A stretch of 64,000 nt of DNA from Tahibacter soli (lineage in GTDB: Bacteria > Pseudomonadota > Gammaproteobacteria > Xanthomonadales > Rhodanobacteraceae), in NCBI RefSeq assembly GCF_025717065.2, contig NZ_JAOVZO020000003.1, positions 310,001 through 374,000 of the forward strand, given 5' to 3'. Numbering within the stretch: the first letter of the stretch is position 1; each line of letters starts with the position of its first letter. The notes below the pieces were generated by a model. It was given only the letters and a program-made list of their open reading frames with translations. It was not told where the DNA came from and did not search any database. The position numbers and the translations under genes were made by a program. This document shows positions 15,074 through 35,731 of this stretch, piece after piece.

Positions 15074-15087
15074 GTTGATCGATGTCA
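15074..15087 (+). promoter_or_regulatory. FNR-type box upstream of the GNAT gene
   Basis: TTGATCGATGTCAA differs from the palindrome TTGAT-N4-ATCAA at one position. Its inner edge lies 58 bases before the ATG at 15145, the same spacing as at five other genes in this block. Confidence 0.6.
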
Positions 15088-15144
15088 AGTTCCATGGCGC
15101 CAATGCGCGCAGGATGCGCCAACGACCTCTCAAGGAGATGTGCA

Positions 15145-15729
15145 ATGAACGACGTGACTTCGCAAGCTCCCCAGGCCGCATCAGATCATTCCCTCGTCAC
15201 GACCCCGATATCCGCGGAAACGCCGCGTTGGACGCATCGGCTGCGCGACGGGACGGGTGTACTGATCCGGGCCTTGCGCAAAGAAGATGCGGCGCTCGAG
15301 CGGACGTTCATCGAGAGACTGTCGCCGGCGTCGCGCCGATTTCGGTTTCTGGGGCAGATCGCGTCGCCGAGCGACGAGCTCATTCGCTCGTTGACCGATA
15401 TCGACTATGTGCATGATGTTGCGTTCGTGGCATTGCTGCACGCCGACAACGAAAAAAAGGAGATCGGTGTCGCGCGCTACGGCACCTCGGCGGACGGAAC
15501 CCGCTGCGAATGCGCCGTCACGGTCGCCGACGAATGGCAGGGACGCGGTCTCGGAACGGTGCTCCTCGAGCACCTGGTCGACGTCGCGCGGGAACGAGGG
15601 ATACGGGAGATGTATTCGATCGACGCCGCAGACAACCATGCAATGCGCGATCTGGCCGACGCTTTCGGATTCACGCGCACCACGGATCCGGACGACCCGA
15701 CGCTGGTGACCCATCGTCTGCGCCTGTAG
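15145..15729 (+). CDS. GNAT-family N-acetyltransferase
   Basis: 194 residues; AAGGAG lies eight bases before the chosen ATG. The GNAT core is visible from about residue 35: LRDGTGVLIRALRKED, the acetyl-CoA loop WQGRGLGTVLLEHLVDVA, and a last strand near AFGFTRT. The sequence resembles the acetyltransferase domain of Pat/YfiQ-type protein lysine acetyltransferases, so proteins such as acetyl-CoA synthetase are possible substrates. It is a single gene preceded by an FNR-type box, placing it in the low-oxygen/stress block downstream. Confidence 0.8.
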   Translation: MNDVTSQAPQAASDHSLVTTPISAETPRWTHRLRDGTGVLIRALRKEDAALERTFIERLSPASRRFRFLGQIASPSDELIRSLTDIDYVHDVAFVALLHADNEKKEIGVARYGTSADGTRCECAVTVADEWQGRGLGTVLLEHLVDVARERGIREMYSIDAADNHAMRDLADAFGFTRTTDPDDPTLVTHRLRL

Positions 15730-16162
15730 GCCGGTTGCGTTCCCGAAGCCGATAGAGCGGTGATCGATGCGTTGCGACCGCGCCGCACATCGCAGCCGTC
15801 GCAGCGCATCGTCGCGTCGGGCAGCGGTGCGCCGCGCACGGCGAGCGGCTTGCGTCGAGCCATCATTCGTCGATCGCGACCGGACAATCGAACCGGCACA
15901 CGAAAGCTCGGGCGATGCCGTTCGATGCCCCGCGCCGGATCGGGCGCGGCCCGCAGTTCGCCGGCCGGCATCCGCAGCTTCGCGTTCTCCGGCGAGCCCC
16001 ATCGGGCTGCCGCGCGTCGACATTGAAAATTTCCGAGAAATTATAGCGACGTACCCGGCGCCGCCCGGCGTGGCGTAGTCCCGCCCATGCGCCGCCACGG
16101 TCCGATTCGTGCCGCGCGCTCTCTCTGCCGGCGCACGTCGAGTCGGGTCAACACATGCGACG
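15730..16162. other. Intergenic stretch without a convincing gene
   Basis: About 430 bases between the GNAT gene and the regulatory repeat before the FNR-like gene. Open frames here are Arg/Pro-rich and lack ribosome-binding sites. The only structure seen is an AT-rich 15-bp palindrome, AATTTC-CGA-GAAATT, at 16028-16042. Confidence 0.6.
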
Positions 16163-16205
16163 GTTACGCACCGTTACAAACGGTTGCGGCACCGTCGTCG
16201 TCCGC
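16163..16205 (+). promoter_or_regulatory. Direct repeats GTTAC at 10-bp period upstream of the FNR-like gene (copy 1)
   Basis: GTTAC occurs at 16163 and 16173 and GTTGC at 16183, exactly one helical turn apart, followed by GTCGTCGTCCGC. The whole 43-bp block matches 20058-20100 at 37 positions. Direct repeats with this spacing are typical binding sites of OmpR/PhoB-type response regulators, and one is encoded at 19024-19764. Confidence 0.6.
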
Positions 16206-16266
16206 ACGTCGCGGCCGTGTAGCTTGCACAGCACGAAATCGTCGCAGTCCCGCACCGGAGCTCATC

Positions 16267-16998
16267 ATGTCCGCCGTCGCATCCACCGTTTCGTCAACCG
16301 CCTCCACCCATGCGCTTTCGCCCAGATTGCCGGCCCCGGCACTCGACATCGATGCGGTCGCCGCGCATGTGCCGGTATTGCGGCGGCGCCTCCTCGCCGG
16401 GCAGCACCTCTTTCGCGCCGGCCAGCCGTTCAGGGCGCTGTACTTCGTGCACGCCGGATTCCTGCGCACGAGTCTCGTCACGAGCGACGGGCGAGAACAG
16501 GTGACCGGCTTCTCCATGCGCGGCGATCTCCTCGGCGCGGAGTCGATCGGCTCCGCCACGCACGTCAACGACGTCGTCGCATTGGACACCTGTGAAATCG
16601 TCGAATTGCCCTATCCCGCGGTTCTTGCCGCGTGCCTGGCGGTGCCGCAGTTGCACGGGGCGCTGATGCAGGCATTGGCGACGGAGCTTCGGCGTGATCG
16701 CAGCTGGATGCTGGCGATCGGTACGTTGTCGGCCGAGCGTCGCGTCGCGGGATTTCTGCTCGACCTTGCCGAGCGCTACAAGGCGCTGGGTTTCAGCGCG
16801 AGCCATTTCGTGCTGCGCATGAGCCGCGTCGACATCGGCAATTTCCTGGCACTCAAGCATGAGACGGTGACGCGCGCGCTGTCGCATCTGGCGGCAACCG
16901 GCCTGATCGAGGTCGACCGGCGCGAGATTCGCATCCGCAGTACGTCGCAGCTCGAGGCTCTGGCGTGCGGGTGCGGCGACGAGGCGAGAGCGGCCTGA
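16267..16998 (+). CDS. Crp/FNR-family transcriptional regulator without the FNR iron-sulfur cysteines
   Basis: 243 residues; GGAG precedes the ATG. A cyclic-nucleotide-like beta barrel (residues ~40-125, LFRAGQPFRALYFVHAGFLR) is followed by the dimer helix and a winged helix (MSRVDIGNFLALKHETVTR). Glu199, Thr202 and Arg203 fall where FNR uses Glu, Ser and Arg to read TTGAT, so FNR-type boxes are the expected targets. FNR's N-terminal Cys cluster is absent (no Cys before residue 109; Cys109 matches the central FNR Cys). It therefore probably does not carry an oxygen-sensing [4Fe-4S] cluster and may respond to another ligand or be controlled by its level. Confidence 0.85.
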   Translation: MSAVASTVSSTASTHALSPRLPAPALDIDAVAAHVPVLRRRLLAGQHLFRAGQPFRALYFVHAGFLRTSLVTSDGREQVTGFSMRGDLLGAESIGSATHVNDVVALDTCEIVELPYPAVLAACLAVPQLHGALMQALATELRRDRSWMLAIGTLSAERRVAGFLLDLAERYKALGFSASHFVLRMSRVDIGNFLALKHETVTRALSHLAATGLIEVDRREIRIRSTSQLEALACGCGDEARAA

Positions 16999-17005: not shown

Positions 17006-19027
17006 TTACGGCGCGCGGTCGAGAACGTCGCGCACGGCACCGGCGAGATCTTCCTTGCGGTAGGGTTTCCGAACGAGGGGTACGCCGCGCGGAAGATCCG
17101 AATCCAGGCCGTCGTATCCGGACGTCAGCAACACCGGCAGATCCGGGCGCATCGATCGTGCCGCGTATGCGAGTTCGATGCCGGTCTGGCCGTTTCCGAG
17201 CACGACGTCGCTGAAAAGCAACGCGATCTCGGGTTCGTCGCGCAGTACGGCGAGTGCCTGGGCCGCGTCGGAGGCTTCGTGGACGGAATAGCCGAGGGAG
17301 CGCAGAAACGCGACGGCGATGCCGCGCACTTCGAACTCGTCCTCGACGACGAGTATCGCCTCCTTGCCCCGGCGAGGCGTGGCGGCGGGGGCGTTGACGA
17401 TACCGGGAGCGCCGGTCGAGGCGACGGGCAGATACAGCTCGATGAGCGTACCGTAGCCGAGTTGGCTTTGCGCCAGGAGATGTCCGCCGGACTGCTTGAC
17501 GAAGCCGTAAACCATGCTCAGACCGAGGCCGCTTCCCTTGCCTGCTTCCTTGGTCGTGAAGAAGGGCTCGAACGCGCGCGCGAGCACGTCGGGCGACATG
17601 CCGAGACCGCTGTCGGCTACCGATACGGCGATATAGTTGCCGGCGGGCAGTTCGCTCGTCGCCGCGCCGGCGTCGACGTCGAGCGCTCGGGCAGTCAGCT
17701 CCAGACGCCCGCCGCGCGGCATCGCATCGCGGGCGTTCAGGGCAAGATTCAGCAAGGCACCTTCCAGCTGCGAGGGATCGGCGAATACGGGCGGCAGTGC
17801 CTTGCCGGCTTCCCCGCAATCCACCTCGACGCGGATCGTTTCGCCGAGCGTGCGCTTGAGCATGACGCCGAGTTCGTCGAGCAGCTTGCGCGTATCGATC
17901 GCGGCCGGACTCAGACGCTGGCGCCGCGCGAATGCCAGGAGCTTGCGCGTGAGTTCCGCGCCGCGGCCGACCGCACGCAGCGCGCGCGCGATCACGTCGC
18001 TCGCATCGGGGTTGTCGACCAGCTCGTCCTCGAGGATTTGCAGGTTGCCGGAGACGATCGTCAGGAGATTGTTGAAATCGTGCGCGATTCCGCCGGTCAG
18101 CTGGCCGACCGCGTCGAGGCGCTGCGCGTGCGCAAGCTGGTCCTGCGTCTGGTGGCGCAGCGCCGCGGTCGCGAGCACGTTGGCGACCACCTTGAGGAAA
18201 TGTTCGGCATCGCGGTCGAAAACGCGGCGCCTGCGCATCAGCACGACCAGCGCCCCCATCGGGTTGGCCATGTTCAATATCGGTACGAAACAGCCGCCCT
18301 CGACGCCGGCTGCCGCGAAGTCGCTGCGTATCGACGCCGGCACGAACGAATCGAGGGGATGTGCTTCGGCACCCGCACCCGCGCCGGCGACGGCGCTCAG
18401 GTCGATCGAACGGCAAGCCGCAGCGACGACGTCGGAGTCGACGCTGCGCGCGGCACAGGAAAGAATCTCGCCGCGTTGCGGTTGCAGCACGAAGATTCCC
18501 GCGCCGTCGGCATCGAGGGCTTCGACCACCAGCGGTGCGACCTTCTCGGCAAGGTGGTCGAAATCCGGGGCCTCCAGCGCAAGCTGACCGATCTTCGCCG
18601 TGAAGGCGTCGTACCGCGATCGCGCCAATGCCTGCCGCTGCCGTTGCGTCTCGGAAATATCGCGGATCGACGCGGCGAACAGCGTCGCGCCGGCGTCGCT
18701 GACCGGGCTGAGCGCGATTTCGACCGGAAAGTGGGTGCCGTCGCGGCGACGGCCGACCAGTTCCTGTCCCGCTCCCATCGGCCGGACGCGCGGCCGCTCC
18801 ATGTAGCGAGCCTTGTGCGCCAGATGGGCATCGCGCACGTGCTCCGGCAGCATGATTTCGACCGGCTGGCCAAGTAGTTCGTCGACCGCGTATCCGAACA
18901 AGAGCGCCGCCTGCGGATTGGCGAGCACGATGCGACCGTCCAGACCGACCACCACCATCGCGTCGGGGGCCGTTTCGAACAAGGCGCGATAAAGCGCGGA
19001 TCGCTCGTCCGGTGCGTGGCTCGTCAT
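17006..19027 (-). CDS. Hybrid sensor histidine kinase (PAS-GAF-HisKA-HATPase-REC)
   Basis: 673 residues, no transmembrane helix, so cytoplasmic. PAS domain at about 12-125 (LFETAPDAMVVVGLDGRIV), GAF at about 150-290, the phospho-acceptor His316 in GGIAHDFNNLLT, ATP-binding N box near 432 (LALNARDAM), G boxes DSGLGMS and GKGSGLGLSMVYG, and a C-terminal receiver (residues ~556-670) with phospho-acceptor Asp607 in LLFSDVVLG and Lys in VRKPYRK. PAS and GAF domains often bind haem, flavin or small ligands, fitting a redox or oxygen signal. The ATG overlaps the stop of the response-regulator gene (ATGA), so the two are co-translated. Confidence 0.92.
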   Translation of the reverse strand: MTSHAPDERSALYRALFETAPDAMVVVGLDGRIVLANPQAALLFGYAVDELLGQPVEIMLPEHVRDAHLAHKARYMERPRVRPMGAGQELVGRRRDGTHFPVEIALSPVSDAGATLFAASIRDISETQRQRQALARSRYDAFTAKIGQLALEAPDFDHLAEKVAPLVVEALDADGAGIFVLQPQRGEILSCAARSVDSDVVAAACRSIDLSAVAGAGAGAEAHPLDSFVPASIRSDFAAAGVEGGCFVPILNMANPMGALVVLMRRRRVFDRDAEHFLKVVANVLATAALRHQTQDQLAHAQRLDAVGQLTGGIAHDFNNLLTIVSGNLQILEDELVDNPDASDVIARALRAVGRGAELTRKLLAFARRQRLSPAAIDTRKLLDELGVMLKRTLGETIRVEVDCGEAGKALPPVFADPSQLEGALLNLALNARDAMPRGGRLELTARALDVDAGAATSELPAGNYIAVSVADSGLGMSPDVLARAFEPFFTTKEAGKGSGLGLSMVYGFVKQSGGHLLAQSQLGYGTLIELYLPVASTGAPGIVNAPAATPRRGKEAILVVEDEFEVRGIAVAFLRSLGYSVHEASDAAQALAVLRDEPEIALLFSDVVLGNGQTGIELAYAARSMRPDLPVLLTSGYDGLDSDLPRGVPLVRKPYRKEDLAGAVRDVLDRAP

Positions 19028-19764
19028 TTGCGCTCCACCGCAGGAACGAAGAGATATCCGGCGCCGCGAACGGACTTGATCAATGCAGGCTGGTTCGGGT
19101 CGATCTCGAGCTTGCGTCTGAGGCGTCCGATCTGCATGTCGATGGCCCGGTCGAACGGACCGGCTTCGCGACCGTGAATGCTGCTCATCAAGGCGTCTCG
19201 CGAGAGCACGCGATTGGGCTGGAGGACGAATGCACGCAGCAGGTCGTACTCGCCGCTCGTGAGCGCGACGGACTTTCCGTCGGGAGCGTGCAGCGAGCGT
19301 GCCGCGAGGTCGAACCGAAAGTCGGCGAACACGACGACATCGCGAGCGGGCGTTGCGGTCGGAAGCGGCTTTTCCGCGGGGGCCGAACGACGCAGCACGC
19401 TGCGCACGCGCGCGAGCAGTTCGCGCAGATCGAACGGCTTCGTCACATAGTCGTCCGCACCCAGTTCGAGCCCGACGATACGGTCCACGGAGTCGCCCCG
19501 GCCGGTCACGATAATCACCGCACCGTGCCAGTGCTCGCGCAGGTAGCGCGTCAGGGCGAGGCCGTCCTCGCCGGGCAGTCCAAGGTCGAGCAGAACGAGA
19601 TCGATCGTCTCGCCGGCGATCTGCCGCCGCATTTCGTCGCCGCCCGTTGCCGTACTGATGCGGAAACCTTGCTTTGTGAAGTAAAGCACGAGCAGGTCGA
19701 GGACTTCGCGATCGTCGTCGACCGCCAGCAGGTGGGGCGAAGTCGTTGCGCTGAACCCGATCAT
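19024..19764 (-). CDS. OmpR/PhoB-type response regulator
   Basis: 246 residues. The receiver domain shows acidic DDD at residues 16-18, phospho-acceptor Asp60 in LVLLDLGLPG, and the conserved Lys in VTKPFD; the C-terminal winged helix ends GAGYLF. It is cognate to the overlapping histidine kinase. The start MIGFSATTSPHLLAVDDD was chosen because upstream codons are Arg-rich; no strong ribosome-binding site is seen. Its likely DNA targets are the GTTAC direct repeats at 16163 and 20058, which flank the operon on both sides. Confidence 0.92.
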   Translation of the reverse strand: MIGFSATTSPHLLAVDDDREVLDLLVLYFTKQGFRISTATGGDEMRRQIAGETIDLVLLDLGLPGEDGLALTRYLREHWHGAVIIVTGRGDSVDRIVGLELGADDYVTKPFDLRELLARVRSVLRRSAPAEKPLPTATPARDVVVFADFRFDLAARSLHAPDGKSVALTSGEYDLLRAFVLQPNRVLSRDALMSSIHGREAGPFDRAIDMQIGRLRRKLEIDPNQPALIKSVRGAGYLFVPAVERK

Positions 19765-20176: not shown

Positions 20177-20599
20177 ATGAAAATTCTCCTTGCCGTCGAT
20201 GGAGGCTCTCACAGCCGCCGGGCCGTCAAGTATGTAACGTCGAACTGGCGTCTGTTCGAAGGCAGGGCCGCGTTGACGCTGCTGCACGTCGACCCGCCGC
20301 TGATGACGCGCGTCGCCCGGGCACTGGGGCGTGAAGAAGTTCAGCGCTACCACGCCGACAATGCCAAGGCGTCGCTCAAGCACGCACGCGCCGCTTTGCG
20401 GCGCGCGCGGATCGCCTGCACCGAGCAATGCCTCGTCGGCGACCCCGGAACGACGATTTCGCAGACGGCGTCGGCCGGCCGATACGCAATGGTCGTCATG
20501 GGTTCGCACGGCCACGGCGCGTTCGGAAATTTACTGCTGGGGTCTGTCGTAACCAAGGTGCTGCACGGGTGCAAGGTGCCCGTGCTCATCGTCCGATGA
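20177..20599 (+). CDS. Universal stress protein, single domain (usp1)
   Basis: 140 residues. Starts MKILLAVDGGSHSRRAVKY, the usual first strand and Asp of UspA-fold proteins, and ends with the ATP-binding pattern GSHGHGAFGNLLLGSV (G-2x-G-9x-G-S). It should bind ATP and form dimers. First gene of a plus-strand run usp1-usp2-usp3-oxidoreductase, preceded by the GTTAC repeats. Confidence 0.88.
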   Translation: MKILLAVDGGSHSRRAVKYVTSNWRLFEGRAALTLLHVDPPLMTRVARALGREEVQRYHADNAKASLKHARAALRRARIACTEQCLVGDPGTTISQTASAGRYAMVVMGSHGHGAFGNLLLGSVVTKVLHGCKVPVLIVR

Positions 20600-20626
20600 T
20601 CGGCGAATTCGACGGGGTTGGGTGTC

Positions 20627-21322
20627 ATGTTCGACGACCTGCTGGTCTTTTGCCTCAACGATGAAAACTGGCCGCGAGCGATCGCCTACGCGCGATCGCT
20701 CGCCCCGTCGTCGGGCGGGCGGACCACGGTTCTGGTGCGGAAGGCGGCCGACCTGTCTCTCGTGGACGCGGATGCTTCGACGCGCGTGGTGCATTGCCGT
20801 TCGGGATTGGCGGAGTCGATCGGCTTCCATGCCGCGTGGGCGGACGTCGTCGTGATCGATGCGCCAGCCGCGCTGGCGGACCTGGAATCCATCCTGTGCG
20901 ACGGCGGACGTCCTTGTGCGGTGCTCCCGTTCGGCGCGCGGACGCCGGCGCCGCCGCGCAGGATCGCCGTCGGCTGGAACGGCTCGCTCGAATCCATGCG
21001 AGCGCTCAAGGCGGCGTTGCCGCTGCTTCGTCGCGCCGAGCACGTCGTCGTCCTCGACGCGGGCAGGAAGTCGCACGAGATGTGCGACGCAACGCCGTGT
21101 GCGGCGACCTGGCTGGCCGAACGCGGCATCTTCGCGGCGCGTGTTCGAAGCGACAGCGCGGCGCAAGGCGGCAGAACGCTCGTCGAGCTCGCCGCGGAAC
21201 ACGCGGTCGACCTCCTCGTGCTCGGGGCGTATCGCCATCAGCGCTTCACCGAATGGGACACCGGCGCGACGCTCGATCAAGTCCTGCGCGACGGCGACAT
21301 ACCCGTACTGCTCGGCCACTAG
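20627..21322 (+). CDS. Universal-stress-protein-like, divergent tandem type (usp2)
   Basis: 231 residues. The C-terminal half is a USP domain (RRIAVGWNGSLESMRALKAA ... LLVLGAYRHQRFTEW), with the loop GAYRHQRFTEWDTGATL diverged from the ATP-binding consensus. The N-terminal half is a degenerate UspA fold with no clear nucleotide loop. The ATG at 20627 is preferred over a TTG at 20618. It lies 27 bases after usp1, in one likely operon. Confidence 0.75.
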   Translation: MFDDLLVFCLNDENWPRAIAYARSLAPSSGGRTTVLVRKAADLSLVDADASTRVVHCRSGLAESIGFHAAWADVVVIDAPAALADLESILCDGGRPCAVLPFGARTPAPPRRIAVGWNGSLESMRALKAALPLLRRAEHVVVLDAGRKSHEMCDATPCAATWLAERGIFAARVRSDSAAQGGRTLVELAAEHAVDLLVLGAYRHQRFTEWDTGATLDQVLRDGDIPVLLGH

Positions 21323-22164: not shown

Positions 22165-22746
22165 GTGAAAATCACGATCCTCGACGGACACCCCGATCCG
22201 GATGCGGCAAGATTCGTACACGCGCTCGCCGACGCCTATGCGGCGGGAGCCCGGCAGAACGGACACCAGGTCCGGCGTATCGACGTCGCGCGAATGACGT
22301 TCGGGCTTTTGTCGACGAAGCAGGAATTCGAATCCGCCGAACCCGAGGAGGCGATCCGCGGCGCGCAGGCGGACATCGCGTGGTGCGATCACTTCGTCGT
22401 CCTGTATCCGCTCTGGCTCGGCGACGTCCCGGCACGCCTGAAAGGACTTTTCGAGCAGGTCTTTCGTCCCGGCTTCGCGTTCGCGGCGGCCCGAAAAGGC
22501 CGCTTCCCGACTCGCCTGCTCGCCGGCAGATCGGCCAGGATTGTCGTCACGATGGGAATGCCGGCCGTCGTCTACCGCTGGTTCTTTCGCGCGCACAGCG
22601 TGAAATCGCTTCAGCGCAACGTGCTGGGCTTTTGCGGGTTCGGTCCCGTGCGCAGCCTGCTGATCGGGGCCGTTGAAAATCTCACGCCGGCCCGACGCGA
22701 CAGGTACCTTCAGCAGATGCGTGCCCTCGGCCGCGATGCCGGGTGA
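22165..22746 (+). CDS. Flavodoxin-fold NAD(P)H-dependent oxidoreductase
   Basis: 193 residues from a GTG three bases after usp3. The first strand and loop (MKITILDGHPDPDAARFVHA) and the YPLWLGDVPARLKGLFEQVF segment are typical of FMN/FAD quinone reductases (MdaB/NQO-like). It probably reduces quinones or similar acceptors with NAD(P)H, giving redox protection. Last gene of the usp1 run; the DUF1003 gene ends convergently 18 bases later. Confidence 0.8.
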   Translation: MKITILDGHPDPDAARFVHALADAYAAGARQNGHQVRRIDVARMTFGLLSTKQEFESAEPEEAIRGAQADIAWCDHFVVLYPLWLGDVPARLKGLFEQVFRPGFAFAAARKGRFPTRLLAGRSARIVVTMGMPAVVYRWFFRAHSVKSLQRNVLGFCGFGPVRSLLIGAVENLTPARRDRYLQQMRALGRDAG

Positions 22747-22763: not shown

Positions 22764-23462
22764 TCAGCGCCCGGCGTCGCCGCCGGCGCCCGGTTCGACG
22801 GCTTCGTCTGCGACGGACGCCAACTCGCGTTCGCCATGAAGCCGCAAGAGATGATTGACCTTTTCGTGAAGGTGCCTGATCTCGAGTTCGGCTTTCAGGT
22901 TGACCCGGTAGTCGTGGTCGGCGCGTTCGCGATCGCGCGCGGCCGCGCGGTTCTGGCTCATCAGAATGATCGGTGCCTGGATTGCGGCGAGACACGACAA
23001 CACCAGATTGAGCAGGATGAAGGGCGGCGGATCGAATGCCGCGTCGCGCAGAAGCGCGCCGTTGATCACGATCCACGAGCCGAGGACGGCCGAAAACCAC
23101 AGAAGGAACGCCCAGCTCCCGCCGAACGATGCAATTGCGTCGGACAGCCGTTGCCCGCGCGTGCGGCTGTCCGATCCGGCGTCGAGCGAACAATCGTCGC
23201 TGGTCGAGACATCGATGCTGACGGCGAGCAAACTCTCGCGCCGGAGCGAGTCCTGTACGTAGCCGCTGCGCAGGCGGTCCAGATCCTGCTCGCAGATGCG
23301 GCCTCTGAGCGAAAGTTGCGCATGCGTGCGGCGCGCGTATTCGAGCAGCGAAGCGCCGAGCGTGTGGAGCGGCCAGGACGCGGCCGAGCGGGTCAGATGC
23401 TTGCCGCAGACGGCGCAGCGCGAAGCGTTTCCGGATCGCGAACGCGGCAGGCGCGTGGCCAT
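22764..23462 (-). CDS. DUF1003 membrane protein
   Basis: 232 residues. Two transmembrane helices lie in the middle (WAFLLWFSAVLGSWIVING and FILLNLVLSCLAAIQAPII), followed by the DUF1003 hallmark IILMSQNRAAARDRERADHD and the amphipathic tail VNLKAELEIRHL. N-terminal CAVCGKHL may bind metal. Function of the family is unknown. The stop of usp4 overlaps its start (TGATG), so it is co-translated with usp4. Confidence 0.82.
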   Translation of the reverse strand: MATRLPRSRSGNASRCAVCGKHLTRSAASWPLHTLGASLLEYARRTHAQLSLRGRICEQDLDRLRSGYVQDSLRRESLLAVSIDVSTSDDCSLDAGSDSRTRGQRLSDAIASFGGSWAFLLWFSAVLGSWIVINGALLRDAAFDPPPFILLNLVLSCLAAIQAPIILMSQNRAAARDRERADHDYRVNLKAELEIRHLHEKVNHLLRLHGERELASVADEAVEPGAGGDAGR

Positions 23463-23863
23463 CAGCTCACCACCAGCACCGGCAGATCGCAATGCGCAAG
23501 TACCTGCTGCGTCTGGCTGCCGAACAGCAGCGCCGCAACGGCGCCGCGTCGATGCGACGCCATGACGATCAGGTCGCAGTCAAGCTTGAGCGCGCTGGAA
23601 ACGATCACTTCGTGAGGCTGGTCGCCAGCCGCGCGGATCATGCTGCACTCCACACCCGCCGCATGCGCCACTCGGGCAGCGTAGTTGAGCATGTCGCGCG
23701 CCCGATCGACGTCGGCTGTGCCGCCGCCGGAGGCTCTCTGCGGCGGTTCGATATGCAGCGCGGTGACCTTCGCATGCATCTGCCGCGCGAGACGCACGCC
23801 GCAGCGAACAGCGGATTCCGATGCCGGCGAATCGTCCATCGGAAGCAGGAGATGTTTGTACAT
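23462..23863 (-). CDS. Universal stress protein, single domain (usp4)
   Basis: 133 residues. MYKHLLLPMDDSPASESAV opens the UspA fold; ASHRRGAVAALLFGSQTQQV is the nucleotide-loop region. It has its own FNR-type box 62 bases upstream and overlaps the DUF1003 gene. Upstream in-frame codons up to 23938 are not expected to be translated because they overlap the box. Confidence 0.86.
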   Translation of the reverse strand: MYKHLLLPMDDSPASESAVRCGVRLARQMHAKVTALHIEPPQRASGGGTADVDRARDMLNYAARVAHAAGVECSMIRAAGDQPHEVIVSSALKLDCDLIVMASHRRGAVAALLFGSQTQQVLAHCDLPVLVVS

Positions 23864-24994: not shown

Positions 24995-25056
24995 GAGAGT
25001 AGTCCCGCACGAGATTCAGTGTGCGGCAACTTATCGTTGTCCCTGCGGCGCGATGT

Positions 25057-27697: not shown

Positions 27698-28641
27698 CGC
27701 GGTTCGAATTCCTTGACGGGTTCTTGTCCGAGCAGGTAGGCGGCCGGGTTTTCCCGCAGTCGCGCGGCGACGGCGCGGATCGAGCGCAGCGTCGATCGCA
27801 ACTCGGCGACCGCCGGCGATATCTGCGACAGCCCGTCTCGTCCGAAACCGGCGATGGCCGCGCGATTCTCGTCCAGCACGGCATTGGCGGTATCGGTCGT
27901 CCGCCGGACCGAATCCAGCCAGGCGCGCGCGGAGGCCAGCGTGAGCCGGCCTTCGCGGTCGACGAGCGTTCGCGCGGACGCGGCGAGCGCGTCCACGCGA
28001 GCGAGCGTGTCTTCCAGCCGTGCCGACGTCGTCGCCAGCGTCGCGATCGCTGCCTTCAGTTCGGCGCGCTGATCGGCGACCGCGCCGGTGACCTGGTCGA
28101 TATGTTCGAGCGAGCGGGCGACATGGCTCATGTTTTCGTCGGACAGCAACGTGCCGACGCGCGCCAGCACGTCGTTGGCGTTGACGGCCACGTCCTGCCC
28201 CGAGGCCAACAGCGTCTGCAGCGCGGACGCATCGGCGACGATGCGCGGATATTCGTCGCCGGCGGCCGCGGTCAGGCGCGGTGCCGCAGGGCTTCCGCCG
28301 GAGAGCTGGATCACGGTGACTCCGGTAAGGCCGACCAGATTCAAACTGGCCTTCGTATCGGTTTTGACGGGCGTGCCGCCGAACAGTCGGACGCGAATCA
28401 CGACCTGGCGGGGGTCGTCGTTCGCCAGCGACAATTTGCGAACGTCGCCTACTTGTATACCGTTATACTGAACGGCGCCGCCGACGGTGAGCCCCGTCAC
28501 CGCCTCCTTGAATACGATGTCGTAGTAGTCCCACTCCCGGTCCAGCGACAGTTTTCCGATCCACATCACGAACAGCAGCGCCGCGATGAAAACGGTCAAC
28601 GTGAAGGCACCGATCAGGACGTAGCTGGCGCGTGTTTCCAT
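27694..28641 (-). CDS. MCE-domain (MlaD-like) periplasmic lipid-binding protein
   Basis: 315 residues, GAGGAG before the ATG. One N-terminal transmembrane helix (YVLIGAFTLTVFIAALLFVMW), then one MCE domain (YYDIVFKEAVTGLTVGGAV, VQYNGIQVGDVRKL, GLTGVTVIQL), then a long helical region (~150-300). MCE proteins form hexameric rings or tubes that carry phospholipids between membranes. It works with the ATPase and permease just upstream. Confidence 0.9.
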   Translation of the reverse strand: METRASYVLIGAFTLTVFIAALLFVMWIGKLSLDREWDYYDIVFKEAVTGLTVGGAVQYNGIQVGDVRKLSLANDDPRQVVIRVRLFGGTPVKTDTKASLNLVGLTGVTVIQLSGGSPAAPRLTAAAGDEYPRIVADASALQTLLASGQDVAVNANDVLARVGTLLSDENMSHVARSLEHIDQVTGAVADQRAELKAAIATLATTSARLEDTLARVDALAASARTLVDREGRLTLASARAWLDSVRRTTDTANAVLDENRAAIAGFGRDGLSQISPAVAELRSTLRSIRAVAARLRENPAAYLLGQEPVKEFEPR

Positions 28642-28651: not shown

Positions 28652-29446
28652 TCAAGCCGGCGTGCCCTGCGCCGATCCGTGCGACTGCGCGCTGCGTGCG
28701 CGCGGACCCTGGAAGCACTGGCGAATCCAGGGGTCGGGGTGGCGTTCGACGACCGCTATGCGATCGACGACGACGACGCGACGATCGGAGATAACCGCGA
28801 CGCGGTCGCAGATCGCGTACAGGCTGTCCAGATCGTGGGTAACCAGGAACACGGTCAGGTTGAGCGCGTCCCCCAGCGTTCCGATCAGCGCGTCGAACGC
28901 CGCCGCGCCCACCGGGTCCAGGCCGGACGTCGGTTCGTCGAGAAACAGAACTTCCGGATCGAGTGCGAGGGCCCGGGCGAGACCCGCTCGCTTGCGCATG
29001 CCGCCGGAAAGCTGGGCCGGGTACTTTGCCGCCGCGTCGCTCGGCAGCCCTGCGAGTCGGATCTTGAGCATCGCGATTTCGTCGGCAAGTCCGGCCGGCA
29101 ACCGGAAATTCTCGATCAGGGGTACTTTGACGTTCTCCAGCACGGTCAACGACGAGAACAACGCGCCATCCTGAAACATCAGCCCGAACCGACGATCGAT
29201 TATCTGGCGGTCCTCCGGGCGCAGACGGGTAGTGTCCTGGCCGAACAAGGTGACGCGACCGTCCGTGGGTTCCTGCAGCCCGACGATGGAACGCAGCAAA
29301 ACCGACTTGCCTGCTCCCGAGCCGCCGATCACGCCCAGCACCTCGCCGCGGTATACGTCCAGATCGAGTCCGTCGTGTACGACCTGCTTGCCGAAGACGT
29401 TGCGCAGTCCGCGTACCCGGATGACGGATTCGCGCGCCTCGTTCAC
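28652..29446 (-). CDS. ABC transporter ATPase (MlaF-like)
   Basis: 264 residues from a GTG that overlaps the permease stop (GTGA). Walker A GGSGAGKS, Q loop FQDGALFSSL, signature LSGGMRKRAGLARAL, Walker B VLFLDEPTSGLDP, H loop THD. The GGMRKR signature is characteristic of MlaF/Ttg2A ATPases. Supplies energy for lipid transport. Confidence 0.93.
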   Translation of the reverse strand: MNEARESVIRVRGLRNVFGKQVVHDGLDLDVYRGEVLGVIGGSGAGKSVLLRSIVGLQEPTDGRVTLFGQDTTRLRPEDRQIIDRRFGLMFQDGALFSSLTVLENVKVPLIENFRLPAGLADEIAMLKIRLAGLPSDAAAKYPAQLSGGMRKRAGLARALALDPEVLFLDEPTSGLDPVGAAAFDALIGTLGDALNLTVFLVTHDLDSLYAICDRVAVISDRRVVVVDRIAVVERHPDPWIRQCFQGPRARSAQSHGSAQGTPA

Positions 29447-30579
29447 AAGTGGATCTCCATGAAGAACATGGCGAACAATGCGTCGAAAACGATGACGAGA
29501 AAAATGGCCTGAACGACCGAAGCCGTCGTATGCCGACCTACGGATTCGGCGCTGCCCTGAACCTTGAATCCTTCCAGGCACCCTACGGCCGCGATCAGAA
29601 ACGCGAACACGGGGGCCTTGGACATGCCGACCCAGAAGTGGCGCAGGCTCGTCGTCTCATGCAGCCGTGCAACGAACATGCTCGGCGTGATGTCCAGCGA
29701 CATCGAACCCACGATGCCGCCGCCGACGAGACCGGCGAACATGCCGATCACGGTGAGGGCCGGCAGCATCACGAGCAGGGCGAGCAGCCGCGGCAAGACG
29801 AGCAGCTCGATGGGGTCGAGCCCCAGCGCCGCGATCGCGTCGAGTTCCTCGCGACTCTTCATCGACCCGATTTGCGCCGTGAACGCGCTGCCCGAGCGTC
29901 CGGCGAGCAGGATTGCGGTCAGCAGCACGCCGAACTCGCGCAGGAACGAGTAGGAGACCAGTTCGACCGTGTAGATCGACGCGCCGAAGTCGCGCAGCAC
30001 GGTCGCGCCGAGAAAGGCCACCACCGCACCGACCAGAAAAGTCAACAATGCGACAATGGGGACTGCGTCGAGCCCGGTCTGCTCCATATGAAATACCGTC
30101 GCTGTGACGCGCAGTTTCCTGCGGCGCACGACGACTTTCGCGAGCGTCGCGAGAACTGCGCCGACGAAGCCGAGGAGTTCCCGGGTGCGTTGCCACAGTC
30201 CGGCGATCCAGACGCCGACACGTTCGACCATCCGAACGAAATTCGCGTGTTTCGCCGCCGGCGGCGCGAGGGTGTCCAGTCTGGCGAAGACGAGATCGAG
30301 CAGCGCGAGATCGGCCTTGCTCATGTTGTCGATGCGATGATCGGCGAATCGCGTGCTTCCGTGCCGCAGCAGCCGGCCCAGGAGCAGCGCTCCGGTCGTG
30401 TCGAACGCGCCGAGCCCGGCGGCGTCGACGGTCAAGGCTCCGTCGGCGCTCCGGATGGCTGCAAGGCGTTCGATCTGCGCGCAGAGCCGTCCCGCGTTGG
30501 CGAGCGTCCAATCGCCGTCCATGCGGATGCTCGGACGCGCGGTTCCGTCCGGGACGTCAATGAAGGCGGCATCTACCAT
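29443..30579 (-). CDS. ABC transporter permease (MlaE-like) with N-terminal STAS-like domain
   Basis: 378 residues. Residues ~1-115 resemble a STAS-like domain (LTVDAAGLGAFDTTGALLLG), a fusion seen in MlaE homologues where MlaB is part of the permease. The rest is the MlaE fold: VALLTFLVGAVVAFLGA, a conserved coupling segment AGRSGSAFTAQIGSMKSREE, and hydrophobic helices to the end. No separate MlaB is present, consistent with the fusion. First gene of the operon, with an FNR-like box 61 bases upstream. Confidence 0.9.
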   Translation of the reverse strand: MVDAAFIDVPDGTARPSIRMDGDWTLANAGRLCAQIERLAAIRSADGALTVDAAGLGAFDTTGALLLGRLLRHGSTRFADHRIDNMSKADLALLDLVFARLDTLAPPAAKHANFVRMVERVGVWIAGLWQRTRELLGFVGAVLATLAKVVVRRRKLRVTATVFHMEQTGLDAVPIVALLTFLVGAVVAFLGATVLRDFGASIYTVELVSYSFLREFGVLLTAILLAGRSGSAFTAQIGSMKSREELDAIAALGLDPIELLVLPRLLALLVMLPALTVIGMFAGLVGGGIVGSMSLDITPSMFVARLHETTSLRHFWVGMSKAPVFAFLIAAVGCLEGFKVQGSAESVGRHTTASVVQAIFLVIVFDALFAMFFMEIHL

Positions 30580-30639: not shown

Positions 30640-30653
30640 GTGATCTGAATCAA
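30640..30653 (-). promoter_or_regulatory. FNR-like box upstream of the Mla-like operon
   Basis: GTGATCTGAATCAA, one mismatch to TTGAT-N4-ATCAA; 61 bases before the permease start, same spacing as the other boxes. Confidence 0.5.
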
Positions 30654-30738: not shown

Positions 30739-32148
30739 TCAAGCCGGGCCGGCTGCCAGCAGGTCCACTTCGTCGCGGTACTCGGGAATTCGGGCCGTCC
30801 AGCGAAGCTCCCGCTCGATCCTCAGCCGCAGGGCGTCGGCCGCGTCAGGTTCGCCGTGCGTGACGAAAGCGCCGCGTGGCGCGGACGGGGCCGTGCGCAG
30901 CCACGCCATGATCTCGTCGGCATCGGCATGCGCCGAGGCGCTGTCCATCGAGACGACTTCGGCATTCACCGGCACGTCCTCGCCGTACACGCGAACGCTA
31001 CGGGCCCCCGCGGCGAGTGCGGCGCCGCGGGTTCCGCCGGCCTGAAATCCGGCGAGCACGATCGCGTTGCGCGAATCGGGCGCGAACGCGCGCAGATGAT
31101 GCAGCACACGACCGCCGGTGAGCATGCCGCTGGCCGATACGATGATCATCGGCCCGCGTTTTTCGTTGAGCGCGCGCGACTCGTCGGCCGATCCCACGAT
31201 CGTCACCGATTCGCGCAACAGTGCGAAGTCCTCCCGGTCCAGATGGTGCTCTCCGGCGAACCGTTCATACAGTTCGGTGACTTCGGCGGCCATCGGGCTG
31301 TTGAGGTAGATCGGTACCTTGGCGATCGTACCGGCGTGCTGAAGACGCGCGAGCAGCACCAGGAGCAGCTGCGCGCGGCCGACGGCGAACGCCGGGATTA
31401 CGATCGTGCCGCCGCGCGCGAGGACGCGGCGGCAGACCCGGGCGAGTTCGGATTCCAGCGTGTCCGCGCCGTGGAGCCGGTTTCCATAAGTGGATTCGGT
31501 GACTATCCAGTCGCAGCCGGCGAGCGGAAACGGCGCCGGCATGACGGGATCGTGCCAGCGTCCGATGTCCCCGCTGAACGTGACGGTCGTGTCGGCGTGG
31601 TTCAGCGTAACGGACGCGGCACCGAGAATGTGCCCTTGCGGACGCAGCGTAGCCCGCACGCCGGGCACGGGCTCGAACGTCCGGTTCCAGGCCGCCTGCC
31701 GGAACAGCTTCAGCGCCTTCCGCGCCTGCGCCTCGTCGTACAACGGTTCGGCGGGACGATGCTTGCTGTAGCCGCCGCGGTTGGCGTGGTCGGCATCTTC
31801 GGCCAGCAGATGGCCCGAATCGGGAAGCAGGACGCCGCACAGCGCACGCGTCGCACCGGTGGACCAGACTTTACCTTGGAATCCTTGCGCGGCCAGTCGC
31901 GGCAGGAAGCCCGAATGGTCGAGATGCGCGTGAGTCAGCACGATCGCGTCTATGGATGCCGGATCGACCGGAAACTCGGCCCAGTTGCGCAATCGCAACG
32001 GCTTGTAGCCTTGAAACAGTCCGCAGTCGACGAGCAGGCGCGACTCGGCCGTTTCGACGAGATACTTCGAGCCCGTTACGGTCGACGTTGCTCCCAGAAA
32101 CGTCAGCTTGAATCGAGGGGGCGATGTCCTGGTCGGCTTGATCTTCAT
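30739..32148 (-). CDS. MBL-fold beta-CASP ribonuclease-like protein (YSH1/CPSF type)
   Basis: 469 residues; GGAGA before the ATG. Metallo-beta-lactamase motif THAHLDHSG (metal ligands), GDIGR, then the beta-CASP region (ESTYGNRLHG, IPAFAVGRAQ, SASGMLTGGRVLHH) and RMMBL-like tail (SMDSASAHADADEIMAWL, FVTHGEP). The family cleaves RNA with zinc. In several bacteria it is linked to usp and P-type ATPase genes, as here: it follows the P-type ATPase by 44 bases on the same strand. Confidence 0.9.
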   Translation of the reverse strand: MKIKPTRTSPPRFKLTFLGATSTVTGSKYLVETAESRLLVDCGLFQGYKPLRLRNWAEFPVDPASIDAIVLTHAHLDHSGFLPRLAAQGFQGKVWSTGATRALCGVLLPDSGHLLAEDADHANRGGYSKHRPAEPLYDEAQARKALKLFRQAAWNRTFEPVPGVRATLRPQGHILGAASVTLNHADTTVTFSGDIGRWHDPVMPAPFPLAGCDWIVTESTYGNRLHGADTLESELARVCRRVLARGGTIVIPAFAVGRAQLLLVLLARLQHAGTIAKVPIYLNSPMAAEVTELYERFAGEHHLDREDFALLRESVTIVGSADESRALNEKRGPMIIVSASGMLTGGRVLHHLRAFAPDSRNAIVLAGFQAGGTRGAALAAGARSVRVYGEDVPVNAEVVSMDSASAHADADEIMAWLRTAPSAPRGAFVTHGEPDAADALRLRIERELRWTARIPEYRDEVDLLAAGPA

Positions 32149-32192
32149 CCGGGTCTCCCGATTGTACGAACAGTGAGAGGGGTCGAAACGCG

Positions 32193-34760
32193 CTAGGCGC
32201 GAGCGTGGCGCAATGCCAGCCGGCGCGCTCGTTGCACGCCGCTGCGTGTCGCCGTCGCCAGGGCCATCGGGAAGAGGAACGCGGCAAGCGAGGCCCACCA
32301 GTCCGGCGAGGCGAATCGGAAGATCGACGCTATCGGCGCGAGATACATCGCGCAGAGCAATGCCAATGTTGCCATTAGAGAAATAATCCAGAAATACGGA
32401 TTGTTAAAACGCAGCGCGCCCCTTGCGCCGTTACCGTCGCGGTTGAGCGCGAGAAGCGCGAGATTTGCCCCGACGATGGCGGAGAAAGTCAGCGCCTTGA
32501 TTTCTCCGTCCGGCAAGCCCCATTGCCAGGCGGCCGCATACACGGCCGCCGCAGCGGCGAGTCCGGCGGCGCCTTCGGCCAGCGCAATCCCGATTTCGCC
32601 GATGCCGAGGACCGGCGCATCGCGAGCGCGCGGCCGCTGACCCATGACGTCCGTGCCGGTGACCTGACGTTCGAACACGAGCGTGCACGACGGGTCGATG
32701 ATGAGTTCGAGGAACACCACGAGGACGGGCGAGAGTACGAGCGGGCCGCCGAACAGGAGCGGCAGGAACGCCATGCCGGCCACGGGAACGTGAACCGCGA
32801 GGATGTAGCGCAGCGCTCGCTGAATATTCGCGTAGATCGTACGGCCGAGCCGAATGCCGCCGACGATCGATGCGAAGCGATCATCGAGAAGAACCACCTG
32901 CGCCGCCTCGCGCGCGACGTCCGTGCCGCGCCGGCCCATCGCGATCCCGACATGGGCGCATTTGAGGGCGGGCCCGTCGTTGACGCCGTCGCCCGTCATC
33001 GCGACGACTTCCCCCGCGTCGCGCAGCGCGCGCACGAGACGCAGTTTTTCGTCGGGCGACACGCGTGCGAATACGTCGCACGCCAGGATCGCGTTGCCGA
33101 ACGCGCCGTCGTCGAGCGGCGAAAGCTCGTCCCCCGAGAGAACCGATCGGTTGTCGATGCCCGCCGCTGCCGCAATGCTTCGTGCGGTCGCCGGGTGATC
33201 TCCGGTGATCATCACGACCCGCACGCCGGCCGCTTGCGCTTCGGCTACGGCGCGGGGCACGTCGCCGCGCAGCGGGTCGGAAAAGCCGATCAGCCCCAAT
33301 GGATCGAGATGGAGATCGGTGGGCGAGGGCGGCAGCTCGGATTCGGCAAGGTCGATCGACCCGAATTGCGCGCGAGCGACGGCCAGCACGCGCAGCCCCG
33401 AGCTTGCCAGTTCTGCCGCGGCGCCGAGAAGTTGCGACTTCTCGCGAGCATCCAGCCGGCATAGTTCGGCGATTGCTTCGGGGGCGCCCTTGCAAGCGAC
33501 AAGCAGGCGCCGGGAGCCCGGTATCCGCCAAACATAGGTGCGTGCCTTCGACGCGGCCGACAACGGGTAGCGACGCACGAGGATGCCGCGCCGCGAGACT
33601 TCACCGGGGCCGGCAGCATTCCCGATCGCCAACTCCATCGGGTCGGTCGGCGCGGGCTCGCCGGCCAATGCGGCCAACCGCAGCAGCTCGCCGAAAGCCG
33701 GGGGGATCGCCGAGCCGTCTTCGGACTGCCAGCGCTCGCCCCCGGCAACCAGCGCCCGTATCGCCATGCGGTTTTCGGTCAACGTGCCCGTCTTGTCGAC
33801 GCAAAGCACCGATATGGCGCCGAGCGTCTCGATCGCAGGCGGACGCCGCACGAGCACTTGCGCACGAGCCAGCCGCCATGCGCCGAGCGCGAGGAAGATG
33901 GTCAACACGAGCGGAAACTCTTCGGGGACATTCGCGATCGCCAGGGTGATACCGGCGAGTAAGGCGTCGACAAAGGTGCCGCGAGTCGCCCAGAACAGGG
34001 CTGTCACCAGCACGCACGAACTCAGACCGATGATCGCGAAGACCAGGACGAGCCGATCGATTTGCTGTTGCGTCGGCGAGCGTACGGTGTGTATGGCGCC
34101 AAGCGATGTGCCGATGCGGCCGACCTGCGTTTGCGCGCCGACGGCCCTGACGCGGGCGCGTGCCTGTCCGCTTACGATCAGTGTGGCGCTATACAACGTC
34201 TGACCCGGCGTGGGCGGCCTACTCGAGTCGGTGCGGATGGTTTTTGATACGGGCATCGATTCGCCCGTCAACAACGACTCGTCGACCGTCAAAGCGTGCG
34301 CGAACAGGAGATCGCAATCGGCAGGCACCCGGTCGCCTTCCTCGGCGAAGATCAGATCCCCGACGACGAGTTTGCGCGCGTCGATGCGAACCAGCGCCCC
34401 GTCGCGATAGACGGCCGCCTGCGGGCTCGACAGGTCTCGCAGCGCATCCAGCGCCCGCTCGGTCTTGCCGCGCTGGATGACCGTGGAGCTGACGACGACG
34501 ACCACCGAAAGACACAATACGGTTGCTTCGGCCAGGTCGCCGAGTGCGAAATAGAGCGCGGCGGCGACGACGAGCAGCGCCAGCATCGGCTCGCGCAATG
34601 CGTCGACGAGCAGGTCGAAAAATGCAGGCCGGCGATCGACCGGCATTGCATTCGGACCGTCTCGCGACTGCTGCCACAGCGCTTGTTCGGACGTCAGGCC
34701 GAACTCCGCCCATTCGTCTTGCGCCGACGCGATTTCGCCGCGGGAGTCCGACATCTGCAT
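32193..34760 (-). CDS. P-type cation-transporting ATPase (P2-like)
   Basis: 855 residues. N-terminal cation-ATPase domain, actuator motif TGES, M4 segment NVPEEFPLVL, phosphorylation motif DKTGTLT, nucleotide site KGAPE, and hinge TGDGVNDGPALK; six or more C-terminal helices (residues ~640-850). The PEEFP sequence in M4 differs from the PEGLP of calcium pumps, so the ion is uncertain. It starts three bases after usp5, in an operon usp5-ATPase-MBL. Confidence 0.92.
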   Translation of the reverse strand: MQMSDSRGEIASAQDEWAEFGLTSEQALWQQSRDGPNAMPVDRRPAFFDLLVDALREPMLALLVVAAALYFALGDLAEATVLCLSVVVVVSSTVIQRGKTERALDALRDLSSPQAAVYRDGALVRIDARKLVVGDLIFAEEGDRVPADCDLLFAHALTVDESLLTGESMPVSKTIRTDSSRPPTPGQTLYSATLIVSGQARARVRAVGAQTQVGRIGTSLGAIHTVRSPTQQQIDRLVLVFAIIGLSSCVLVTALFWATRGTFVDALLAGITLAIANVPEEFPLVLTIFLALGAWRLARAQVLVRRPPAIETLGAISVLCVDKTGTLTENRMAIRALVAGGERWQSEDGSAIPPAFGELLRLAALAGEPAPTDPMELAIGNAAGPGEVSRRGILVRRYPLSAASKARTYVWRIPGSRRLLVACKGAPEAIAELCRLDAREKSQLLGAAAELASSGLRVLAVARAQFGSIDLAESELPPSPTDLHLDPLGLIGFSDPLRGDVPRAVAEAQAAGVRVVMITGDHPATARSIAAAAGIDNRSVLSGDELSPLDDGAFGNAILACDVFARVSPDEKLRLVRALRDAGEVVAMTGDGVNDGPALKCAHVGIAMGRRGTDVAREAAQVVLLDDRFASIVGGIRLGRTIYANIQRALRYILAVHVPVAGMAFLPLLFGGPLVLSPVLVVFLELIIDPSCTLVFERQVTGTDVMGQRPRARDAPVLGIGEIGIALAEGAAGLAAAAAVYAAAWQWGLPDGEIKALTFSAIVGANLALLALNRDGNGARGALRFNNPYFWIISLMATLALLCAMYLAPIASIFRFASPDWWASLAAFLFPMALATATRSGVQRARRLALRHARA

Positions 34761-34763
34761 TCT

Positions 34764-35588
34764 TCAATGCCGCAGCAGAAGCGGCATCGGGGCGTGCGCA
34801 AGCGCGTGACGCGTGGCGCCACCGAACGCCCACTCGCTGAATCGGCTGCGCCCGTAGGCGCCCATGACCAATAGCGTCGCTTCGTTCGCCGCTGCCGCAT
34901 CAAGAATGGCGCGTCCGGCATCCGCGCCGCTGGCACCGATCGCCACGAAAGAGACGGGGATGGCGTGCCGCGCGAAATAGGATTCGAGATTGAAGTTCGG
35001 CAACCAGCCGATTTCCGAGAACGGATCGCGAATCTCTCCGCTCAACACCGTGACGCGTCCGGCGCGCTCCAGCAGCGGGCGTGCGGCATGGATCGCGCGA
35101 ACCGCTTCCGCCGAACCGTTCCAGGCGACAGCGACGGAACGCAGCGACGGGGCGTCGTCGAAGTCCGGAGGAACGACGAGCGCAGGCAGGCCGGAGCGAA
35201 TCGCGACCGCACCGATTTGCGCGGCCTCCGCATCGCCCCAGTCTCGGCGCGTCAGGACCAGAAGATCGTGCCAATTGCCAAGATGGCGCAGAACGTCGGG
35301 AACCGAGCCTTCGGCGACTTGCCAGGCCGCGTGCCGCACCCCCTGATCGCGGGCCCATTTCTCGAATTCGCCGCGGGCTTCGTACGCTTTTCGTTCCGCG
35401 CTGCGGATGCTTTCGAGGATGAGCGCGAACGCCTCGGTCGCGCCGTAGAGCGCACCGGATGCCGACGGCGTGGGACAGACGAGAGTTCCGGTCAATGACG
35501 ATTCGGTGAGCGCGGCGAACTTCGCCGCGTAGCCGAAATCGGCATCCCACCGATCATGACTGTTGCCGAGCGCGAGGATGCTTTGCAT
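34764..35588 (-). CDS. Tandem universal stress protein (usp5)
   Basis: 274 residues. Two UspA-like halves: the first opens MQSILALGNSHDRWDADFGY; the second contains SVAVAWNGSAEAVRAIHA and GAYGRSRFSEWAFGGATRH with the ATP-loop pattern. Sequence and architecture are close to usp3. It leads the operon with the P-type ATPase and MBL genes and has a perfect FNR-type box 55 bases upstream. Confidence 0.88.
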   Translation of the reverse strand: MQSILALGNSHDRWDADFGYAAKFAALTESSLTGTLVCPTPSASGALYGATEAFALILESIRSAERKAYEARGEFEKWARDQGVRHAAWQVAEGSVPDVLRHLGNWHDLLVLTRRDWGDAEAAQIGAVAIRSGLPALVVPPDFDDAPSLRSVAVAWNGSAEAVRAIHAARPLLERAGRVTVLSGEIRDPFSEIGWLPNFNLESYFARHAIPVSFVAIGASGADAGRAILDAAAANEATLLVMGAYGRSRFSEWAFGGATRHALAHAPMPLLLRH

Positions 35589-35642
35589 GGCGGCCGTCTC
35601 CCTGGATGAATTTCTACGCTAGCCGAAGGCGCCGGGTCGCTC

Positions 35643-35656
35643 TTGATACAAATCAA
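35643..35656 (-). promoter_or_regulatory. Perfect FNR-type box upstream of usp5
   Basis: TTGATACAAATCAA matches TTGAT-N4-ATCAA exactly; 55 bases from the usp5 start codon. Confidence 0.8.
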
Positions 35657-35717
35657 CTCGCGCGCGACGGCGCATGTTGCGGATCGCGAACCGACGGCGT
35701 CTCGTCCTTGAGCCTTG

Positions 35718-35731
35718 TTGATTTGCATCAA
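35718..35731 (+). promoter_or_regulatory. Perfect FNR-type box upstream of the BON protein
   Basis: TTGATTTGCATCAA, an exact match; 58 bases before the ATG at 35789. It and the box at 35643 serve divergent genes. Confidence 0.8.

Follow-up and report, generated by a model that had tools for sequence, protein, structure and literature searches.

Burkholderia (lxa), Pseudomonas (Anr), and Mycobacterium (DosR) have low-oxygen stress loci that are rich in universal stress protein (usp) genes. In general, the wiring and rewiring of such loci are less clear. Here, we analyzed a 64,000-nucleotide stretch of the Tahibacter soli genome (positions 310,001 to 374,000 of contig NZ_JAOVZO020000003.1; hereafter, the window). 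A 20.7 kb block of this stretch carries six FNR-type boxes upstream of stress genes, and a gene for a CRP/FNR-family regulator lies inside the block, next to genes for a histidine kinase and a response regulator. On the basis of sequence comparison, the block is probably a low-oxygen stress locus under a FixL/FixK-like cascade.

Papers citing Sass et al. 2013 state that low oxygen raises the lxa locus of Burkholderia cenocepacia (PMC6127331, PMC9104464). The genes named in one of these accounts include several universal stress proteins, the BON protein BCAM0280, the zinc alcohol dehydrogenase BCAM0299, the metallo-beta-lactamase (MBL)-superfamily protein BCAM0300, the flavin-reduction protein BCAM0285, and the small heat-shock protein BCAM0278 (PMC6127331). 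In B. dolosa, FixLJ is stated to induce fixK at low oxygen (PMC5234846), and FixK is described as an FNR-family protein without N-terminal cysteines (PMC7713065). The FixK2 protein of Bradyrhizobium is said in one source to be under oxidation-mediated control (PMC9104804). Finally, Anr is reported to control usp genes in Pseudomonas aeruginosa (PMC8509486), and an Anr consensus is quoted for Burkholderia (PMC9104464).

The block shares with lxa a cluster of usp, BON, zinc alcohol dehydrogenase, and MBL genes, as well as a flavin-type reductase. As apparent differences, it spans about 20 kb and contains a regulator-kinase-response regulator triad and an Mla-like operon; among the block open reading frames (ORFs) scanned, none had a Pfam match to a small heat-shock protein of the BCAM0278 kind. 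The likeness to the FixL-FixJ-FixK system of rhizobia and the Burkholderia cepacia complex lies in a FixL-like PAS kinase, a response regulator, and an activator of the FNR family that lacks N-terminal cysteines. However, the response regulator is here of the OmpR type, a receiver domain and a weakly matching GAF domain are part of the kinase, and gammaproteobacterial FNR resembles the regulator more than FixK2 does. The box, the recognition helix E-x-x-[S/T]-R, the class II spacing, and targets of the usp/adh/cco type are those of FNR/Anr, whereas the iron-sulfur (Fe-S) ligands are absent and no Fe-S FNR was found in the genome.

The block thus holds a real, conserved class II FNR-box regulon, the gene content of which is ordinary beside the lxa and Anr regulons. 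What seems new is the pairing of a regulator free of Fe-S with an adjacent FixL-like kinase, in a species apparently without FNR. The regulon is compact enough for promoter-by-promoter testing, and in it an FNR-family regulator without cluster ligands comes with its own kinase. Since FNR was apparently lost in this species and kept in seven congeners, sensor replacement becomes testable within one genus, and the species may be a natural test of low-oxygen network rewiring.

FNR-type boxes and promoter geometry

The original prediction listed six boxes of the form TTGAT-N4-ATCAA, two perfect and four with one mismatch. All of them are present, each within one base of the position given: the boxes at 23925, 30640, 35643, and 35718 stand as listed, and those placed at 15074 and 25057 begin at 15075 and 25056, respectively. 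The distances from box to start codon are near-constant, as had been claimed, with measured values of 56, 61, 61, 60, 54, and 57 bases instead of 58, 62, 63, 61, 55, and 58; these refer to predicted start codons, and several ORFs have additional in-frame starts, some of which overlap the box. When six gaps were drawn from 0–199, a range of 7 or less was obtained in 0/1,000,000 draws.

The window contains seven matches with at most one mismatch, versus a mean of 0.40 and a maximum of 2 in 100 dinucleotide shuffles, and five control patterns (one reversed, four scrambled) gave 0, 0, 0, 0, and 2 matches. The seventh site, which was absent from the earlier list, lies at 23062–23075, within the DUF1003 ORF. 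FNR-type boxes are therefore far more frequent in the window than by chance.

The motif scan that had been proposed was run on the whole genome (6.65 Mb, 23 contigs, 99% complete). Four perfect sites were found versus none for the backwards pattern, and 82 sites with at most one mismatch versus 18 for the control, whereas the strict pattern TTGAYNNNNRTCAA occurs at background level (six exact sites, control six). Four of these six strict sites fall in the 20.7 kb of the block, a clustering with a probability of ~4e-7 after a rough scanning correction. The sixth strict site, at C23:300382, was treated as a chance occurrence; the sequence around it is AT-rich, and the ORF that follows has no Pfam match. 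Outside the window, 17 of the 25 sites with at most one mismatch that were inspected (of 75) fall within ORFs, according to a rough gene call. One of these 17, located 57 bases before rplD and inside rplC, was likewise taken as chance.

At class II promoters of the CRP/FNR type, the site is centered near −41.5 and the −10 hexamer lies about 22 bases from the box. We aligned 30 promoters on the box, six from the window and 24 from relatives, the latter chosen for a start codon at 52–71 bases (24/32 boxes with a homologue start at most 350 bases away). In this set, the signal of a TATAAT-like hexamer is highest at 22 bases from the inner edge of the box, which would put the box center at approximately −41.5. 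The mean −10 score at this best offset was 1.85, versus 0.85 in single-base shuffles (0/1000 as high), and 1.95 in the relative promoters alone. The class II geometry expected from the spacing is thus supported by sequence in the 30-promoter set, and weak in the six promoters of the window taken alone.

Boxes and spacing are kept in most relatives. Around the regulator, 14 stretches from 13 relatives were scanned (272,060 bases), with two stretches (L114 and L118; 35,000 bases, no boxes, no homologues) excluded from the box count. We found 57 sites with at most one mismatch, versus 0, 0, 0, 0, and 3 for five control patterns (one reversed, four scrambled). For 30 of the 57, a homologue of a block gene starts at most 350 bases away, and 22 of these 30 have an in-frame ATG, GTG, or TTG at 52–71 bases. 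Boxes were seen near the regulator in 12/13 relatives. The spacing has exceptions, among them two boxes that stand over 90 bases upstream of the gene for the regulator.

The in-block regulator

The regulator was correctly assigned to the FNR family: it has the CRP/FNR fold, with a cNMP-like domain and a Crp helix-turn-helix. Oxygen sensing in the manner of FNR is not supported, as all four cysteine ligands are absent (an N-terminal cluster of the C-x2-C-x5-C type and one central Cys were considered). The central ligand position is occupied by Val, and the regulator's own Cys lies three residues earlier. With its N-terminal cysteines missing, the protein agrees in this respect with the description of FixK given above. 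The closest solved proteins are those labelled 'FNR type regulator' (9qly, 8qto, and 5cvr), followed by FixK2, with DNR far lower. The NCBIfam FixK model scored 76 bits on the regulator against a cut-off of 300, and FixK2 scores below FNR.

Among 59 genomes of the family, 47 had some match at 1e-15. The group closest to the regulator (51–66% identity) occurs in 13 genomes besides this one, and the regulator's own paralogue on contig C14 is 67% identical. A class-level sample of 274 genomes gave no comparable relative, the 39 other matches at 1e-40 being only 35–42% identical, and the Fe-S motif is present in 29/29 of the class-level homologues fetched. The FixK-like clade to which the regulator belongs (clade B) is thus, as judged from these searches, found in one family only.

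Clade B makes up 15 of the 68 rows of our tree, with support of 100/98, and none of its 15 proteins has the N-terminal Fe-S motif (simple motif, first 140 residues). Its sister is a further clade without the cysteines (93/82), and the two together cluster with seven Fe-S FNRs (96/90); two changes of the Fe-S label are required on the tree. No FixK is among the rows. The midpoint root serves the drawing alone, and loss of the ligands rather than gain is therefore what we infer. The best reading of clade B is that of FNR-family proteins whose ligands were lost and which would be FixK-like in action.

The second cysteine-less clade (L077, L078, L083, L085, and L088) comes from other genera of the family. 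On a long branch among the Fe-S FNRs of the family, we also observed L162 (G014:C23), a 52% relative of the Fe-S FNR without the simple Fe-S motif.

The neighboring kinase and response regulator

The regulator, a hybrid kinase, and an OmpR-type response regulator are adjacent in 13/13 relatives, G057 included, and this adjacency favors a functional link. The best seven distinct solved matches of the kinase PAS domain are FixL (5e-20 to 1.5e-16), followed by one other kinase and then by DosP. The histidine at the heme position of FixL, a position that aligns without gaps, is kept in 14/14 kinases, that of the window included. This PAS type is common, and its members are not all known to bind heme. 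Taken together, the sequences suggest that the sensor is likelier the neighboring kinase, with its FixL-like PAS domain, than the regulator; this kinase is absent from the original prediction. The response regulator carries Trans_reg_C (OmpR type) in place of the NarL/LuxR DNA-binding domain of FixJ-type proteins. Among the papers that our literature searches listed, none was recognized as a description of the triad or of the locus in Lysobacterales.

Apparent loss of the Fe-S FNR and possible decay of boxes

A query with the Fe-S FNR of congener G050 retrieved a relative (57–100% identical) in 7/7 congeners. For G036, G014, and G050, the Fe-S motif itself was read, and the match spans the region in the other four. 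In the genome studied here, nothing beyond the pair of cysteine-less clade-B proteins was retrieved by the same query, and a domain search added only one CRP-type protein and non-FNR proteins and no Fe-S FNR. Thus, judging from its sequence, the species seems to have lost the Fe-S FNR that its seven congeners keep.

The number of strict boxes follows the same pattern. The seven congeners have 11, 22, 24, 27, 29, 35, and 38 (controls 2–8), the lowest value belonging to a genome that is 87% complete, versus six in this genome. From the mean rate of the congeners, 30 would be expected, and the Poisson probability of six or fewer is 1e-7 with kinship ignored. The hemN gene, the sole target compared gene by gene between a congener and this genome (57% identical), has a perfect box in G050 and no box with up to three mismatches in 14480–14760 of C14 here. 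This fits a decay of the regulon after the loss of FNR; loss of target genes is also compatible.

A second module with cbb3 oxidase genes

On contig C14, the regulator's paralogue adjoins another OmpR-type response regulator and hemN-, ccoN-, and ccoO-type genes, with no comparable kinase in the surrounding 20 kb. A perfect box precedes ccoN by 57 bases, counted to an ATG that we chose as a shorter start. The cbb3 oxidase is a classic low-oxygen target, and so this box is the strongest link between the boxes and low oxygen; ccoN is a probable target of the paralogue. The low-oxygen role of the block is supported indirectly, by the ccoN box with its spacing and by the likeness to lxa.

We also considered a replacement of fnr in situ by the paralogue, which is unsupported: no ccoN homologue was found in the 20 kb surrounding the Fe-S fnr in three congeners.

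The Mla-like operon and the ribonuclease gene

The original prediction regarded the inclusion of lipid transport and of an RNase under one switch as unusual. For the RNase this does not hold, because an MBL-superfamily protein (BCAM0300) is present in the lxa locus too; this protein is reported to be 24-fold raised when early and late isolates from a single patient are compared (PMC6127331). In G050, moreover, a separate box precedes the homologue of the RNase gene at 53 bases.

For lipid transport the claim stands: the link of the Mla-like operon to the switch is lineage-specific. The MlaE gene is present in 4/8 genus genomes and has a box in three of these four, the window's included (one mismatch in this genome, two mismatches in G036 and G334). 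The G050 copy, matched only from residue 85, has no box. Among MlaE loci from named genomes, 31/33 have no site with up to two mismatches within 250 bases of the match.

Proposed cascade and alternative explanations

We propose that the FixK-like regulator (16267–16998), perhaps together with its paralogue, would bind TTGAY-N4-RTCAA boxes centered near −41.5 and activate the six promoters via class II contact with RNA polymerase. The adjacent two-component system, made of the FixL-like PAS hybrid kinase and the OmpR-type response regulator, would set the amount or the activity of the regulator. The kinase would bind heme and O2, and the genes of the block would rise as oxygen falls. A broader scenario is possible, and we put it forward tentatively: FNR may have been lost, the usp block and the cbb3 oxidase, as the core that survived of the low-oxygen regulon, may have passed to two duplicated Fe-S-free FixK-like regulators, with the usp block under the control of a FixL-like heme kinase, and the FNR boxes elsewhere may have decayed. 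If true, a direct oxygen sensor was naturally replaced by a two-component cascade, within one genus.

Several observations weigh against the proposed cascade. The six promoters of the window alone give a weak −10 signal (best offset 21, P = 0.107; offset 22, P = 0.049), and the 24 relative promoters were pre-selected for their spacing and drawn from related genomes. The usp homologues lie near the regulator in only 10/13 relatives, G057 has neither box nor usp in 16 kb around the regulator, and the spacing deviates in some relatives (e.g., boxes 84 and 134 bases before usp1). The longest ccoN ORF starts upstream of the chosen ATG and overlaps the box, and the C14 paralogue could bind the same boxes as the in-block regulator. 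In place of the distal Arg of FixL, the kinase has Gln, and its relatives have Gln, Tyr, His, or Phe, so that O2 binding by the kinase is not assured. The partner of FixL is a FixJ-type regulator, not an OmpR-type one. Moreover, even with two mismatches allowed, the window shows no site at the promoters of the regulator and of the response regulator, and the wiring among the three genes of the triad is therefore not evident.

A regulator that senses by itself without Fe-S, using its conserved Cys, a heme or NO ligand (DNR-like), or redox (FixK2-like), would leave the kinase with another target. A Cys a few residues before the conserved PxLQ/PxLH occurs in 13/14 aligned clade-B rows, a precedent exists in what is stated of the oxidation-mediated control of Bradyrhizobium FixK2 (PMC9104804), and the C14 paralogue lies beside a response regulator with no comparable kinase nearby. 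Nevertheless, the adjacency of the triad in every relative (13/13) speaks for a functional link with the kinase, and the nearest solved proteins are FNR and then FixK2, with DNR far below; we consider self-sensing unlikely.

The boxes could also be a decaying remnant of an FNR regulon, unused since the loss of fnr or used by a CRP homologue. Such an origin would agree with the single mismatch in 4/6 boxes and with strict boxes at background level genome-wide, but two boxes are perfect, the spacing is intact in 6/6, ccoN has a perfect box, and the recognition helix HETVTR is identical to that of congeners G036 and G014, with 27 and 38 strict boxes, which makes a remnant improbable. Reading of the boxes by a usual Fe-S FNR that senses oxygen, as the original prediction implied, with the in-block regulator secondary, appears very improbable: the box fits the Anr consensus as quoted for Burkholderia (PMC9104464), Anr is reported to control usp genes in P. 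aeruginosa (PMC8509486), and seven congeners have FNR, yet the only matches to the FNR query in this genome are the two cysteine-less proteins, which contradicts this reading unless FNR lies in an assembly gap. The FixL/FixK-like cascade accordingly stays our preferred reading, as a probable one.

Genes of the block and neighboring features

The gene identities proposed for the block were confirmed by domain matches of the GNAT, Usp, DUF1003, AdhP, MlaE/ABC/MlaD/ABC-aux, P-type ATPase, beta-CASP MBL, and BON kinds (Table 1).

Table 1. Boxes and genes of the block, with coordinates in the window
Feature	Coordinates	Strand	Remarks
FNR-type box	15075..15088	+	TTGATCGATGTCAA; 56 bases before GNAT ATG (15145)
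FNR-type box	23925..23938	-	TTGATCTGGCTCAA; 61 bases before usp4 ATG (23863)
FNR-type box	25056..25069	-	TTGACGTGTATCAA; 61 bases before adhP ATG (24994)
FNR-type box	30640..30653	-	GTGATCTGAATCAA; 60 bases before STAS-MlaE ATG (30579); relatives with weaker box similarly placed
Perfect FNR-type box	35643..35656	-	TTGATACAAATCAA; 54 bases before usp5 ATG (35588); -10-like TAGCGT 21 bases downstream
Perfect FNR-type box	35718..35731	+	TTGATTTGCATCAA; 57 bases before BON ATG (35789)
GNAT acetyltransferase	15145..15729	+	Several homologues in relatives likewise with box
CRP/FNR-family regulator (FixK-like clade B)	16267..16998	+	Fe-S cysteine ligands absent; recognition helix HETVTR
Hybrid histidine kinase PAS-GAF-HisKA-HATPase-REC	17006..19027	-	GAF below Pfam cut-off; convergent with regulator
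OmpR-type response regulator (receiver + Trans_reg_C)	19024..19740	-	Start codon unsettled, ORF open to 20049
Universal stress protein	20177..20599	+	No box with up to two mismatches in 19740-20180
Universal stress protein	20618..21322	+	C-terminal Usp match
Flavodoxin-fold reductase	22165..22746	+	
DUF1003 protein	22764..23492	-	Overlaps usp4 end; holds seventh site
Universal stress protein usp4	23462..23863	-	
Zinc alcohol dehydrogenase AdhP	23957..24994	-	
ABC_trans_aux lipoprotein	27047..27697	-	
MlaD/MCE protein	27694..28641	-	
ABC ATPase (MlaF-like)	28652..29581	-	Start codon unsettled
STAS-MlaE permease	29443..30579	-	
Beta-CASP metallo-beta-lactamase ribonuclease-type protein	30739..32298	-	Start codon unsettled
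P-type ATPase	32193..34760	-	Best NCBIfam models Ca and H type; only general model above cut-off
Universal stress protein usp5	34764..35588	-	
Protein with three BON domains	35789..36439	+	

Two distinct proteins of the L,D-transpeptidase type (YkuD_2 and YkuD) are encoded at 25101–26920, after the Mla-like operon and on its strand; the two gaps scanned have no site with up to three mismatches. Upstream of the block, at 12231–14970, there are two sizeable ORFs without an NCBIfam match, the first of which also lacks a Pfam match.

A tyrosine integrase gene (39964–41277) adjoins a tRNA-Leu(CAA) gene (41322–41406), and the GC content is lower (about 60%) at 36–40 kb. This region is probably a small integrated element. 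We considered the usp block as part of an integrase island at tRNA-Leu, which is unsupported: the region 41270–41420 has no exact same-strand copy of at least 13 bases elsewhere in the window, and many block genes lie near the same regulator in relatives. Further downstream, at 44215–45384, a DDE transposase with DUF4372 is encoded in a low-GC dip.

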